Assembly: GCA_002256205.1 (NCBI GenBank)
Contig: NKIW01000003.1
Location: 1-64,000, forward strand
DNA length: 64,000 nucleotides
Direction of reading: 5' to 3'
Source: Rhizobiales bacterium PAR1
Lineage (GTDB): Bacteria > Pseudomonadota > Alphaproteobacteria > Rhizobiales > Beijerinckiaceae
In this document: positions 50,149 through 64,000 of the stretch, piece by piece
Numbering within the stretch: position 1 is the stretch's first letter
Layout: the number at the start of each line of letters is the position of its first letter
Position numbers and translations under genes: made by a program
Notes under the pieces: model-generated
The model's input: only the letters and a program-made list of their open reading frames with translations
Database searches by the model: none
What the model was told of the DNA's origin: nothing

Positions 50149-50595
50149 ATGGAGCTGGATTCGCTTCCTTCTCTGTTTGTAAGCAATATGAAAGTAGTGC
50201 CTCTTAGAATTTCAAAACGACGCGGGAATTTCAAATCAACTGTAACGGTTCTTGCGATGCGCCGTGCCTTGAGTGAGCGGATCAGCGAGTCCTGCGCTGC
50301 GGCTTGGCGGGCTGTCCCCTCGATGGAATTGCGATGCCAGAGCCGCCGGACGGCCAGGGTGGCTTCAGCACGGCAGGCTGCCATTTATTTTGCGCATGTT
50401 GTCTTTGCCGCCAACCTCACGCGCGCTGGCGGGATTTTCGGTCGCGATCGGACGACCGCCCGGCATGCCTGCTCGCGCATGGAAGATTGGCGCGATGATG
50501 GACGGATCGATCGGGCTTTTGATGCGCTTGAGCCCGCGCTGCGCACCTGGGTCGAGGCCTTTGCCACGAAAAACGAGCCGGGAGATCAGTCATGA
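50149..50595 (+). CDS. DnaA-domain-IV-like HTH protein (GafA N-terminal/GafY-like)
   Basis: 148 residues. The C-terminal half (about 70-140) resembles the DNA-binding domain IV of DnaA: AIYFAHVVFAANLTRAGGIF, then GRDRTTARHACSRMED, matching the DnaA signature in which RTT and HAC contact DNA. There is no AAA+ domain, so it is a transcription factor-like derivative. In GTA-bearing alphaproteobacteria this domain forms the first part of the activator GafA or a separate protein followed by a DUF6456 protein. The gene has AGGAG before the ATG and overlaps the next gene by 4 bp (ATGA). Confidence 0.8.
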   Translation: MELDSLPSLFVSNMKVVPLRISKRRGNFKSTVTVLAMRRALSERISESCAAAWRAVPSMELRCQSRRTARVASARQAAIYFAHVVFAANLTRAGGIFGRDRTTARHACSRMEDWRDDGRIDRAFDALEPALRTWVEAFATKNEPGDQS

Positions 50596-51473
50596 CCGCC
50601 GGGCGCGGAACAATCCGCCCCCACGGTGTCGCACCATCGGCGAGAGCGCTATCGCAGGAATGTCGGCGTCTTGGGCGCCAGTTATTGAGTCGGATGGCGG
50701 AAAGCAATCTGGAGGCGGAGCGTCGGGGCGACCAGATTGTCCTGCTCAAACCGGGGAGTCGGGTGAGTGTCGCCGCCGGAATGCCGACCGGAGTCCTCGC
50801 GGAATTGCTGCATTCCGGCGCGGTTCGATGCCTCTCGAAAGCCGGGAAAACGGTGTTCACGATCACCGATGAAGGGCGTGCGCGGCTTCGTCGAGAGATG
50901 GCAGGCGGCGATCCTTTTGCCAGTCAGCATCGCGTGCTTGAAACACGTGAGATCGCCGGCAAGGAAGGGCGCGAGACTGTTCGGGTGAACACGCGCGAAG
51001 ACCCGCTGGAGTTCTTCCGGCGCGGACGGGAAGGCGGACGCCTTGTCGGTGCGGCCGAGATCGAAGCGGCGGACCGGCTACGGCGTGATCTGGCCATGGC
51101 ACAGGCCATTCCGCAGGTAACGGCAAACTGGTCGCGTCTCGTGGTGGATGGTGCGGGCTTTCATCCCGGCCTGACCAAATCGGAGGCGATCCTCGAAGCC
51201 CGACGGCGGGTTGATACGGCGATGCGCGCCGTGGGGCCTGACTTCGCGAATATCCTGATGGATATCTGCGGCTTTTCGAAAGGGCTTGAGGCTTTCGAGA
51301 AGGAGCACGCCTTGCCACTTCGCTCCGGCAAGGTTGTCGTGGGATTGGCCTTCCGGGCTCTGGCCCGCCACTACGGGCTTGCCAATGCCGCGCGAGGTCC
51401 GGCTTCGGCACCGATCCGGCAGTGGGGGGCGGAGGGGTATAGGCCTGCCCTGAAAACCGCCATGAAGCGGTGA
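50592..51473 (+). CDS. DUF6456 protein (GafA C-terminal/GafZ-like)
   Basis: 293 residues. An N-terminal winged-helix-like part is followed by a C-terminal DUF6456 region (about 200-275) with RRRVDTAMRAVGPDFANILM, DICGFSKGLEAFEKEH and VVGLAFRALARHYG. Translationally coupled to the DnaA-like gene. Together they have the domain order of the single-chain GTA activator GafA; in Caulobacter the split pair GafY/GafZ activates the GTA cluster and GafZ is reported to act as an antiterminator. I infer the equivalence from domain type, gene order and the nearby GTA genes; which of Y or Z matches which gene should be checked. Confidence 0.75.
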   Translation: MTAGRGTIRPHGVAPSARALSQECRRLGRQLLSRMAESNLEAERRGDQIVLLKPGSRVSVAAGMPTGVLAELLHSGAVRCLSKAGKTVFTITDEGRARLRREMAGGDPFASQHRVLETREIAGKEGRETVRVNTREDPLEFFRRGREGGRLVGAAEIEAADRLRRDLAMAQAIPQVTANWSRLVVDGAGFHPGLTKSEAILEARRRVDTAMRAVGPDFANILMDICGFSKGLEAFEKEHALPLRSGKVVVGLAFRALARHYGLANAARGPASAPIRQWGAEGYRPALKTAMKR

Positions 51474-60444: not shown

Positions 60445-60942
60445 ATGTCCGAATCTTCAGCACCTTTCTGGAAAACCAAGCGCCTCGACGACATGAGCGA
60501 AGCGGAATGGGAAAGCCTCTGCGACGGCTGCGGGCGCTGCTGTCTCATCAAGATGGAAGATGAGGACACCGGGCGCTATTATTTCACCGATGTCGCCTGC
60601 AAGCTCTTCGATGCCGGAACCTGCCGCTGCCGTGACTACCCGAACCGGGACAAGGAAGTGCCGGATTGCGTGCGGCTGACCCCGGAAAATGCCGGGTCGC
60701 TCGGCTGGATGCCGCCGAGTTGCGCTTACCGCCTTCTGTCGGAAGGGAAAAATCTGCCAGAATGGCACCCCTTGGTGTCGGGTGATCCAAAAACAGTCGA
60801 GACAGCTGGGGTAAGTATTAGAAATCGCGTATTTGCCCTCGAAAATGAGGTTTCTATCCCGGAATTGGTTGAAAGAATACGAAAATGGCCAGGGCAGTGG
60901 CCGCGCAGGCCGAGCAGTAGTGTTACCAAGATGGGTAAATAG
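60445..60942 (+). CDS. YcgN/UPF0260 cysteine-cluster protein
   Basis: 165 residues. It holds the cysteine pattern [32 protein letters not shown] and VPDCVRL, typical of the YkgJ-like zinc/iron-chelating family (PF03692, UPF0260). The function is unknown. AAGGGAAG precedes the ATG. Its end is followed by the 304-bp leader region of the GTA cluster. Confidence 0.92.
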
Positions 60943-61246: not shown

Positions 61247-61660
61247 ATGATCCTGAATAAGGAGAAATCGAACTTAGCAGATCAGTCTGTCAAAAAGGCA
61301 GCCGCGCCCCGTAGACGCGTGGTTTCGCGGCTCTGGCGTACAGCCGAGCGACAGGTTGCGGAAATCGAAACGCGCATGGCCGGCGCCTCGGATGATCCGC
61401 TGGCGCTCGAGCGCGACGCCAAGACCCTCGCCATCATTGCCAAGACGATCCGCGATCTTGTTGCCATCGACGGTGAAGCGAGCGAGTTCAATAGCCGGAC
61501 AAAAGCGAAGGAGCAGGCTACTTATGGTGCAAAAGCCCACCTGCTTGCCGCCGCCGATTCCGGTGACCTCGGACCCCGCGATATCGAAGGTTTCCGTGCC
61601 GAACTTGCGCGCCGACTTGATGAGTTGCGTGGAGAACGAGCAGGGAGCGCAGCTTCTTGA
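61247..61660 (+). CDS. GTA small terminase-like protein (g1)
   Basis: 137 residues. A basic N-terminus is followed by RLWRTAERQVAEIETRM and ERDAKTLAIIAKTIRDLVAI, a helical pattern found in the first protein of RcGTA-type clusters, which acts as small terminase in DNA packaging. The start at 61247 has GAGGAAGGAAG upstream; a longer frame from 61082 would run through the leader terminator and is rejected. It overlaps the large terminase gene by 41 bp. Confidence 0.8.
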   Translation: MILNKEKSNLADQSVKKAAAPRRRVVSRLWRTAERQVAEIETRMAGASDDPLALERDAKTLAIIAKTIRDLVAIDGEASEFNSRTKAKEQATYGAKAHLLAAADSGDLGPRDIEGFRAELARRLDELRGERAGSAAS

Positions 61661-62936
61661 AAGTCTGAGCCCGCGCGCGCTGGCGCTTTTCCTCAAGGAT
61701 TGGATGCTCTTTGCCCGCCCGGATCAATTGCCGCCCGCGGAAGCGCAAGGCGGTGGCAGCTGGTTCACCTGGCTGGTGATGGGCGGGCGCGGGGCGGGCA
61801 AGACCCGCACCGGCGCCGAATGGGTGAGAGGGCTGGCACTGGGGCATTCTCCTTTTGCTGAGAAGCCGGTCGGGCGGATCGCGCTCGTGGCCGAGACGAT
61901 GCAGGACTTGCGCGAGGTGATGGTGGACGGGATTTCCGGCCTTCTCGCCATCCACCCTTACGAGGAGCGCCCGATCTGGCATGCCTCGCGTAAGCGGCTG
62001 GAGTGGCCGAACGGTGCGCTGGCGCAGGGATTTTCGGCGGAAGACCCGGAGAGCCTGCGTGGACCACAATTCGAGGCGGCGTGGTGTGACGAACTCGCCA
62101 AGTGGCAATATGCCGATCAGGCGTTCGACATGTTGCAATTCGGTTTGCGGCTCGGGGACAACCCGAAGCAGGTGATCACCACGACCCCGCGTCCCACGCC
62201 TTTGCTCAAACGTTTGGTCGCGGACCCGAGGACCGCGCTCAGCCATGCGCCGACGCGGGCAAATGCGGCAAACCTCGCGCCGAACTTCCTTGCGCGGATC
62301 GTCTCCCGTTATGCCGGGACGCAGCTGGGTCGGCAGGAACTCGACGGCATCATGATCGAGGACAATCCGGATGCGTTATTCCGGCGCGAGATGTTCGAAG
62401 CGAGCCGGATCGACCGGGCACCGCACCTCGTGCGCATCGTGGTGGCGGTGGACCCGCCAGCCGGGGGCAAACGCGGTGGTCGCTGCGGAATTGTCGTCGC
62501 CGGCAAGGACGAGAACGGCGCGGTGTTCATCCTCGAGGATGCCTCGCTGGAAGTCGCGCGCCCGGAGGTCTGGGCGGCGAAAGCCATCGACGCCTATCAG
62601 CGCCATGCGGCGGATGCACTGGTTGCCGAGATCAATCAGGGCGGTGAAATGGTCTCGAGCGTGCTCGGCGCCATCGATGCCAGCGTGCCGGTAACAACGG
62701 TGCGGGCCAAGCGCGGCAAGCACACCCGCGCCGAGCCGGTCGCGGCGCTCTATGCGCAAGGGCGGGTGAAGCATGTCGGTCCTTTCCCGGCGCTGGAAGA
62801 TGAAATGGCGGCCTTCGGGGCCGATGGTCTCGCCGATGGGCGCTCGCCCGACCGGCTCGATGCGCTGGTCTGGGCGGTGACCCATCTGGTGCTCGAAGGT
62901 GAGGCGGGCGCGCCAAGAGTGCGACGGCTGGGCTGA
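61620..62936 (+). CDS. GTA/phage large terminase (g2)
   Basis: About 438 residues; packages DNA into heads. The ATPase part carries the Walker A MGGRGAGKTRTGAEW, FSAEDPESLRGPQFEAAW and Walker B-like AAWCDELAKW, then the coupling motif ITTTPRPTPLLKRL. The nuclease part has VAVDPPAGG, LVAEINQGGEMV and the late Asp in DRLDALVWAVTHL. It is closest in style to the DNA-packaging protein of RcGTA-like clusters. The ATG at 61620 lies inside g1; its ribosome site is weak, so translational coupling is likely. The frame extends further upstream but only as a shadow of g1. Confidence 0.93.
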   Translation: MSCVENEQGAQLLESLSPRALALFLKDWMLFARPDQLPPAEAQGGGSWFTWLVMGGRGAGKTRTGAEWVRGLALGHSPFAEKPVGRIALVAETMQDLREVMVDGISGLLAIHPYEERPIWHASRKRLEWPNGALAQGFSAEDPESLRGPQFEAAWCDELAKWQYADQAFDMLQFGLRLGDNPKQVITTTPRPTPLLKRLVADPRTALSHAPTRANAANLAPNFLARIVSRYAGTQLGRQELDGIMIEDNPDALFRREMFEASRIDRAPHLVRIVVAVDPPAGGKRGGRCGIVVAGKDENGAVFILEDASLEVARPEVWAAKAIDAYQRHAADALVAEINQGGEMVSSVLGAIDASVPVTTVRAKRGKHTRAEPVAALYAQGRVKHVGPFPALEDEMAAFGADGLADGRSPDRLDALVWAVTHLVLEGEAGAPRVRRLG

Positions 62937-62957
62937 GCCTGTTTTTGGATGTTTCGA

Positions 62958-62981
62958 GGCCGCCCGCGAGGCGGCCTTTTT
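62958..62981 (+). terminator. Intrinsic terminator between large terminase and portal genes
   Basis: GGCCGCC, loop CGCGA, GGCGGCC, then five T. It is inside the head gene cluster, between g2 and g3, where a terminator would normally cut off all downstream structural genes. Confidence 0.9.
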
Positions 62982-63025
62982 GTTGGGCCAAGGTCTGGTC
63001 CCTAAACCTCGTCATGGAGAGACGC

Positions 63026-64000
63026 ATGGTCAATCTTCTCGAACGCCTCTTCGGGGGCGAGGCAAGCCGCACGAAAGCGGTGCGGCAGGCGCCGATGGTG
63101 GCCTTCCATCAACCCGGCTCCGGGTTCTTCTCGGACAGATCGGGGCCGGGGCTGGTGCATGCGGGTTTTCATCGCAACGCCATCGTCTACCGCTGCGTGA
63201 GGCTCATTTCCGAAGCCGCGGCGCAGATCGCCTGGACGGTGCTGATCAACGGGTCCGAACAGAAGGACCACCCGGTTGAGGCACTGCTGACACGCCCCAA
63301 TGCCCGCGAAAGCGGCACGGACATGCTCGAAGCACTCTACGGTCACCTCCTTGTTTCCGGGAATGCCTATTGCGAAGTGATCGCGGCCAGCGGCAAGCCC
63401 GCGGAACTCCATGTGCTGAGGCCGGATCGCGTCAGCCTCGTGCCGGGACCAGATGGCTGGCCGTTGGCCTATGACTATGCCGTGGGCACGGGGCTGACGC
63501 GGTTTCCGATTCCGGAGAACGGGCCGTCGCCCATCCTGCATCTCCGGCTTTTTGATCCCCTGAATGATCACTATGGCTTCGCGCCACTTTCGGCGGCGCA
63601 GGTGGCGCTCGAAATGCACGATGCCGCAAGCCGCTGGAACAAGGCGCTGCTTGATAATTCCGCGAGGCCCTCCGGCGCGTTGGTCTATGGCTCGACAGAT
63701 CAGATGAGCGAAGATCAGTTCGAACGGCTCAAGGGTGAACTCGAAAGTGCCTTTCAGGGTTCGACCAATGCCGGACGCCCGATCCTCCTCGAGGGCGGGC
63801 TCGATTGGAAACCGCTATCGCTCACGCCGAAGGATATGGATTTTCTCGAAGCGCGCGCCGGGGCTGCGCGGGAAATCGCGCTGGCCTTTGGCGTGCCGCC
63901 GCTGCTGCTCGGCTTTCCGGGGGACAATACCCACGCCAACTATGCCGAGGCGAACCGGGCTTTCTGGCGCTCGACGGTGTTGCCGCTCGTGCAGCGGACG
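63026..64000 (+). CDS. GTA/HK97-type portal protein (g3), cut by the window end
   Basis: 325 residues are visible; the stop is outside the window. It matches HK97-family portal proteins, which form the DNA entry ring of the head: AGFHRNAIVYRCVRLISEAA, HPVEALLTRPNARESG, LYGHLLVSGNAYCEVI, LHLRLFDPLNDHYGFAPLSA and a late FGVPPLLLGFPGDNTHANY. GGAGAG precedes the ATG at 63026; ATG 63014 is an alternative. The order small terminase, large terminase, portal is that of RcGTA g1-g3. Confidence 0.93.
   Translation, partial: MVNLLERLFGGEASRTKAVRQAPMVAFHQPGSGFFSDRSGPGLVHAGFHRNAIVYRCVRLISEAAAQIAWTVLINGSEQKDHPVEALLTRPNARESGTDMLEALYGHLLVSGNAYCEVIAASGKPAELHVLRPDRVSLVPGPDGWPLAYDYAVGTGLTRFPIPENGPSPILHLRLFDPLNDHYGFAPLSAAQVALEMHDAASRWNKALLDNSARPSGALVYGSTDQMSEDQFERLKGELESAFQGSTNAGRPILLEGGLDWKPLSLTPKDMDFLEARAGAAREIALAFGVPPLLLGFPGDNTHANYAEANRAFWRSTVLPLVQRT

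Follow-up and report, generated by a model that had tools for sequence, protein, structure and literature searches.

A trypsin-like protease gene nested antisense in an alphaproteobacterial gene transfer agent cluster and kept in some relatives that lost the cluster

Gene transfer agents (GTAs) are domesticated phages that carry bacterial DNA from cell to cell, and the usual description of them is one of a plain set of structural genes maintained for gene exchange. The cluster considered here begins at the edge of a 64,000-nucleotide stretch of DNA from Rhizobiales bacterium PAR1 (the window, which is the first 64 kb of the 527,673-bp contig NKIW01000003.1 in a genome of 4.2 Mb), continues past that edge and holds, between its capsid and adaptor genes, a trypsin-family protease gene read from the opposite strand. 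The gene order of the Rhodobacter capsulatus GTA (RcGTA) served for comparison in the form used in the papers cited. The present cluster follows RcGTA in the order g1 to g15; its small terminase, judged by eye, may also resemble that of RcGTA in lacking an N-terminal DNA-binding extension (PMC6854486). It departs from RcGTA in the antisense protease between g5 and g6, in a GH108 endolysin-type gene directly after g15, and in a tape measure of 165 aa, whereas that of RcGTA has segments of 113, 83 and 20 residues (PMC7296036).

The Caulobacter GTA (CcGTA) is likewise a long cluster that needs read-through; there, GafZ carries the polymerase past terminators along 14 kb, an antitermination over the whole GTA cluster (PMC11150451). 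A DUF6456 gene near the cluster is a further likeness, whereas no nested antisense gene is mentioned in the portions of that paper available to us. Lysis by CcGTA depends on LypABC, which is multi-domain with trypsin-like domains (PMC13236601), unlike the small, single-domain protease found here. In the noncontiguous operon of Staphylococcus phage 80alpha (Tha/Ith), one gene is read against the operon that surrounds it, serves as a switch and controls immunity (PMC11087260). The present locus has the same trait, one antisense gene among neighbours that all point the other way, and again in the operon of a phage-derived element; in contrast to Tha/Ith, the nested gene is a protease and not an inhibitor of immunity, and it outlives the element. 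Prophage morons are also comparable, being extra genes of a host-benefit type between conserved head and tail genes, but the carrier here is a GTA, which does not spread itself, and the gene stays on the chromosome after its carrier is lost.

RcGTA-like clusters in Rhizobiales are already known (PMC6821227), and the GTA itself is ordinary, known biology. Our literature searches, confined to open-licence PMC papers, found no description of a trypsin-like gene inside a GTA cluster, and what appears to be new is a conserved, self-sustaining passenger protease in an ordinary GTA. We consider it probable that two statements hold together: that the cluster is a complete, vertically inherited GTA of the RcGTA type, g1 to g15, in a Rhabdaerophilum-like member of the Hyphomicrobiales, and that the protease is a moron-like gene carried by this GTA in the arrangement of a noncontiguous operon.

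The nested protease and its distribution

The protease gene (contig 66599-67405, minus strand, 268 aa; Pfam Trypsin, 7.2e-24) lies antisense between g5, the capsid gene (contig 65370-66602, plus strand), and g6, the adaptor gene (contig 67584-68147, plus strand), and its stop overlaps g5 by 4 bp. The original prediction ended at the window edge, and the nested protease past position 64000 was not visible there. Pfam finds a single trypsin domain in the 268 residues, with no fusion to CARD, ATPase or endonuclease domains. In an alignment of 31 of 38 proteases (L042, L044, L045, L052, L053, L054 and L078 were left out), all 31 share H75, D116, S203 and four cysteines, A28-x-A30 is near-invariant, and inspection by eye gives an export-type N terminus. 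The profile of the aligned proteases matches chymotrypsin-fold proteases in PDB. The product is apparently an exported serine protease of chymotrypsin fold with an intact catalytic triad, and its target is most likely periplasmic or on the outer surface. An origin from a recent phage was rejected, as the phage collection gave no counterpart of the protease; its PHROG match is weak (0.0014). Two 19-nt direct repeats stand upstream of the protease start (contig 67437-67476), and the same search did not find them in the three congeners tried.

The conserved flanks of the cluster are a host gene upstream, presumably YcgN, and a PhoP/PhoQ-like pair downstream, which we take to be FeuPQ-like. A survey of 199 genomes of the family (protease at E ≤ 1e-20, capsid at E ≤ 1e-60; table positions entered by hand with 11 second capsid places omitted, and FeuQ positions listed in part and for capsid-less genomes only) found the protease in 138 and the capsid in 116. 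In 99 of the 116 capsid-bearing genomes the protease lies within 8 kb downstream of the capsid gene, and in all 99 it is antisense; the window genome and all 15 of its GTA-bearing congeners have it antisense at the same spot. Among the other 17 capsid-bearing genomes, 15 of the genera g18 and g74 together with G178 have no protease match, and G171 has it on another contig; G033, the only protease-less gap read in the g18, g74 and G178 set, leaves 77 bp between g5 and g6. Beyond the survey, 54 of the best 80 of 339 named loci hold the protease beside at least two GTA genes, and the genera that pair the two among these best 80 include Methylobacterium, Methylorubrum, Microvirga, Bosea, Chelatococcus, Enterovirga, Ancylobacter, Azorhizobium and Phreatobacter, among others. 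A non-redundant set of 78 loci has one protease in 41 and two in tandem in 37, antisense in every case, and the copies proximal to g6 and to g5 fall mostly into separate clades with moderate support (81 and 86) and some long, unsure branches. Outside the family the picture differs: of 18 GTA loci from other families, G066 carries a protease in the g5-g6 interval and the remaining 17 do not; therefore, the simplest order of events is that the GTA came first and the insertion later.

This fixed place beside the capsid gene, and the two copies in 37 of the 78 loci, could also be expected of a GTA component or accessory that serves capsid or tail maturation, or lysis, and is read from the other strand by chance. 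We regard such a role as unlikely. The prohead protease g4 is already present, the export-type N terminus and the invariant cysteines do not suit it, the gene is on the opposite strand, GTAs without the protease exist, and the protease is kept under purifying selection after GTA loss. A maturation enzyme in particular was judged unlikely on three of these counts, namely the presence of g4, the export-type N terminus and retention without a GTA.

Retention of the protease in some lineages that lost the GTA

Rhabdaerophilum sp. SD176 (G002) is assigned to the same genus as the window genome; NCBI puts Rhabdaerophilum in Hyphomicrobiales. The SD176 genome has no g12, a gene that 66 of 80 relatives, congeners among them, do have, and its locus has no GTA gene; the protease stands there between the YcgN-like gene and FeuPQ. 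When SD176 is compared with the GTA-bearing G012, two gaps of ~9.4 kb and ~5.6 kb flank 0.9 kb that the genomes have in common and that contains the protease. The longer gap reaches from g6 into the endolysin gene, leaving a short endolysin remnant and a 5-bp overlap at the joint, and the shorter one takes g1 to g5, with its end immediately past the stop of the protease. Two Bosea genomes, B. psychrotolerans and Bosea sp. OK403, have likewise kept both proteases, while the g6-g15 and g1-g5 stretches of Bosea sp. AAP35 are missing from them; a single 109-bp match to the missing GTA stretch in B. psychrotolerans may be a remnant.

In the family survey, 38 of the 83 capsid-less genomes keep a protease match (SD176 is outside this sample). 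In 15 of the 38, from seven genera, the protease is divergent to FeuQ at a distance of at most 3 kb; in two FeuQ is ~13 kb away, and in 21 it is far off, on another contig or not placed. A missing capsid match does not always mean a missing GTA, since G046 and G043 lack a capsid match and have other GTA genes. Of the 15 FeuQ-adjacent genomes, G025 and G042 were examined at the level of single bases, the other 13 being classed by the missing capsid and the short FeuQ distance. On the protease tree, built mostly from g6-proximal copies (three single-copy rows, L144, L147 and L154, are of the g5-proximal type, and 17 loci were left out, namely 13 Bradyrhizobium, L151, L133, L104 and L145), the GTA state changes eight times, and at least five of these changes are forced by well-supported branches. 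Ka/Ks of the protease is 0.07 between SD176 and G012 and 0.16, 0.17 and 0.22 in three GTA-less pairs. As far as gene content and substitution patterns can tell, the protease outlives the GTA and is under purifying selection with both of its GTA flanks gone.

The same loci bear on the idea of a neutral hitch-hiker, a host gene that landed in the cluster once and was passively carried. It would be consistent with the missing match in 45 of the 83 capsid-less genomes and in two genera that have the GTA. A passive passenger would hardly survive in separate lineages the loss of everything on either side of it, nor be under purifying selection, nor persist as two copies with intact triads in GTA-less loci of Bosea (L130, L136), Methylobacterium (L132, L146) and Labrys (L164, L169), and we hold this explanation to be very unlikely.

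Possible working of the pairing

If the protease is a moron-like gene of the GTA, it would pay for itself in cells in which the GTA is off, read from a promoter of its own. The long GTA transcript would cross the gene antisense, and GTA transcription should therefore antagonise the protease. In 47 of the 78 loci the protease ends within 60 bp of the g5 stop, so that hardly any space would be left to fit a terminator between the two facing stops. By analogy with noncontiguous operons, switching on the GTA would then depress the protease, and the two states would probably exclude each other.

Several observations weigh against this picture. GTAs without a protease match exist (g18, g74, G178), so the GTA does not need the protease, and 31 of the 78 loci have more than 60 bp between protease and g5. 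The copy in the window genome sits on a long end branch (0.66, against 0.11 for the sister copy in G008), and its Ka/Ks of 0.28 is above that of the GTA genes compared. A promoter scan of the region found none, that of the protease included, and g6 to g15 may have an internal promoter. Immediately ahead of g6 the window genome has a hairpin like that of a terminator, which is at chance level for the region (one found, 1.2 expected); a conserved terminator at this place was rejected, the hairpin also being absent in all 15 congeners. The 45 capsid-less genomes mentioned above have no protease match at E ≤ 1e-20, and of six GTA-less loci read directly the protease is kept in L056, L092 and L093 and absent from L057, L058 and L094. 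Finally, 13 Bradyrhizobium loci hold relatives of the protease without a GTA or FeuPQ gene in the stretch compared, and the tie to the site is not absolute.

For RcGTA it is proposed that DNA enters the periplasm together with the tape-measure protein and probably also the tail peptidase (PMC7296036), which makes an exported protease plausible as a recipient-side factor. Such an immunity factor would act on injected GTA or phage proteins in the periplasm and would be made while the GTA is off and silenced in cells that produce it. The antisense architecture fits an on/off switch of this kind, the nested antisense gene of phage 80alpha controls immunity (PMC11087260), and GTA-less relatives keep the protease. 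On the other side, the protease has no counterpart in the phage collection, its PHROG match is weak, and there are GTA-containing genera without it; we think a recipient-side role improbable. There is a similarly slim chance for its fuller form, a donor/recipient switch, in which GTA-off cells would export the protease to handle or block GTA or phage proteins that arrive in the periplasm, GTA-on cells would silence it by antitermination-driven read-through, and the gene would be kept as immunity once a lineage stops making GTA.

The GTA cluster and its setting

At the window edge, the original prediction had claimed three consecutive plus-strand genes in the order g1-g2-g3, and all three are present, the large terminase and the portal by Pfam and g1 by position and conservation. 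The large terminase g2 (TerL; 61620-62936, plus strand, 438 aa) matches Terminase_6N (3e-26) and Terminase_6C (6.7e-22). The HK97-type portal g3 (contig 63026-64234, plus strand, 402 aa; Phage_portal, 2.9e-89), whose first 325 codons are inside the window, has RcGTA Rcc01684 as its best PDB match. The gene g1 (61247-61660, plus strand, 137 aa) matches no Pfam, PHROG or NCBIfam model and is probably a small terminase by its position, its size, a core kept in 15 aligned members and the RcGTA precedent (PMC6854486). It has no N-terminal extension, whereas L079 and L085 do (a judgement by eye from the alignment); in these related GTAs the small terminases (L079:555-1109, L085:1621-2016) have an N-terminal stretch that on inspection looks like a helix-turn-helix, possibly a trace of GTA packaging losing its sequence specificity.

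Past the window edge, all on the plus strand, follow g3.5 (contig 64241-64432), a 66-aa open reading frame (ORF; orf66, 64429-64629), the prohead protease g4 (64686-65246) and, after the capsid, nested protease and adaptor genes given above, the stopper g7 (68155-68514), the tail terminator g8 (68511-68924), the tail tube g9 (68940-69350), the chaperones g10 (69358-69687) and g10.1 (69741-69926), the short tape-measure protein g11 (165 aa, 69930-70427), the distal tail g12 (70440-71087), the hub g13 (71091-71975), the NlpC/P60 peptidase g14 (71986-72441) and the megatron g15 (72441-76346). The next 13 kb thus have the expected prohead protease, capsid, adaptor and tail genes up to the megatron, in RcGTA order. 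The megatron scores 1612 bits against a cut-off of 800 for the GTA_megatron equivalog in NCBIfam, about twofold above. The capsid, portal and megatron find their best solved-structure matches among RcGTA chains, and for the hub 8gtc is a slightly better match than RcGTA. The tape measure scores 63.6 bits (E 2.2e-17), under the RcGTA_tape cut-off of 220, which is a curated naming threshold and not a defining one. Its length in 50 relatives has a median of 190 aa and a range of 94-232 aa, and a short tape measure peculiar to the window genome was rejected, the 15 congeners spanning 146-197 aa (start choice being approximate in both comparisons). A GH108 endolysin-type gene (76372-77262, plus strand) with a C terminus that is holin-like by eye comes after g15, followed by the PhoP/FeuP-like regulator (77312-77989, plus strand) and its PhoQ/FeuQ-like partner (77996-79393, plus strand).

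On the upstream side stands the YcgN-like flank (60445-60942, plus strand; CxxCxxCC domain in Pfam). Ten chosen ORFs between 46517 and 60942 were scanned with Pfam, small ORFs lying outside the scan; none has an integrase, repressor, phage lysis or replication domain, and two have no Pfam match at all. The G+C content is 0.648 at 62-64 kb, within the window range of 0.497-0.650. Both the absence of such genes upstream and the host-like base composition had been stated before and were borne out, in the former case for the ORFs scanned. What had been overlooked is a DUF6456 protein (50592-51473, plus strand; PF20057, 1.9e-35), ~10 kb upstream of g1 and a candidate GTA activator. We take DUF6456 to be a mark of GafA/GafYZ activators, and as a control the model also matches Caulobacter vibrioides. 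In 28 hand-picked genomes the gene occurs in 12 of 12 that bear a GTA and in one of 16 that are GTA-less, namely SD176, where its retention suggests a recent GTA loss; it is absent in all eight other GTA-less genomes of this set with the protease at the locus. Homologues of gafA are reported in 196 of 208 genomes across GTA-containing alphaproteobacterial orders (PMC9765227).

The 15 GTA-bearing congeners have the gene order of the window genome at the same place, apart from gaps in tblastn (no g7 in three, no YcgN-like flank in one) and one contig that stops within g15. Elsewhere in the order, in the 18 loci of other families, both flanks recur in two, FeuP alone in eight, the YcgN-like gene alone in two and neither in six, and in these last six the stretch compared often ends too soon. 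Since gene order and flanks recur in the genus and partly beyond it, the cluster is to be seen as an old, vertically kept GTA and not as a recent prophage; the original prediction of a domesticated GTA is supported by the RcGTA order, the megatron equivalog and the conserved flanks. Ten GTA genes compared with G008 give Ka/Ks of 0.10-0.24, values that are rough because Ks is near or above 0.7.

A remnant or active prophage could be suspected from the lysis-type gene after g15, from a megatron common to phages at ~40%, and from RcGTA homologues in real prophages (PMC11409702). Lysis, integrase and replication modules downstream had been named as signs against a GTA; the lysis-type gene is present, while no integrase or replication gene was found among the ORFs scanned to 79.4 kb (20 ORFs at 61.2-77.3 kb with Pfam, the regulator pair with NCBIfam). 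The GH108 gene is weak as a refutation because RcGTA itself lyses cells by holin and endolysin (PMC13236601). With no integrase or replication gene among the scanned ORFs, conserved flanks, genes under purifying selection and a match to the GTA equivalog, an active prophage was rejected, and a prophage of either kind has hardly any probability left.

The nearest TerL in the phage collection, at 56.7%, comes from a record that itself resembles a GTA locus, and the next ones reach at most 52%. GenBank MW091529.1 (L178, 18,183 bp, 'Bacteriophage sp. 103231', sewage) has g2 to g15 in order, then FeuP (76%) and FeuQ (38%), and labels the FeuP and FeuQ matches 'antibiotic efflux protein'; apparently a GTA locus from a chromosome was deposited under the name of a phage bearing resistance genes. 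In L047 (G043), g6 to g15 are present with g10.1 undetected, g1, g3, g4, g5 and the protease are undetectable, and g2 is left only as a piece, so that this cluster is possibly a decaying GTA.

The nested protease, doubled in many genera and outlasting repeated GTA losses, presents the GTA as a carrier of a gene with a value of its own, which is a possible reason for the retention of the locus. Species of the same genus with the protease, with and without the GTA, are natural knock-outs; they are environmental bacteria, some of them named isolates, and they open GTA loss, antisense coupling and the function of the protease to direct tests.

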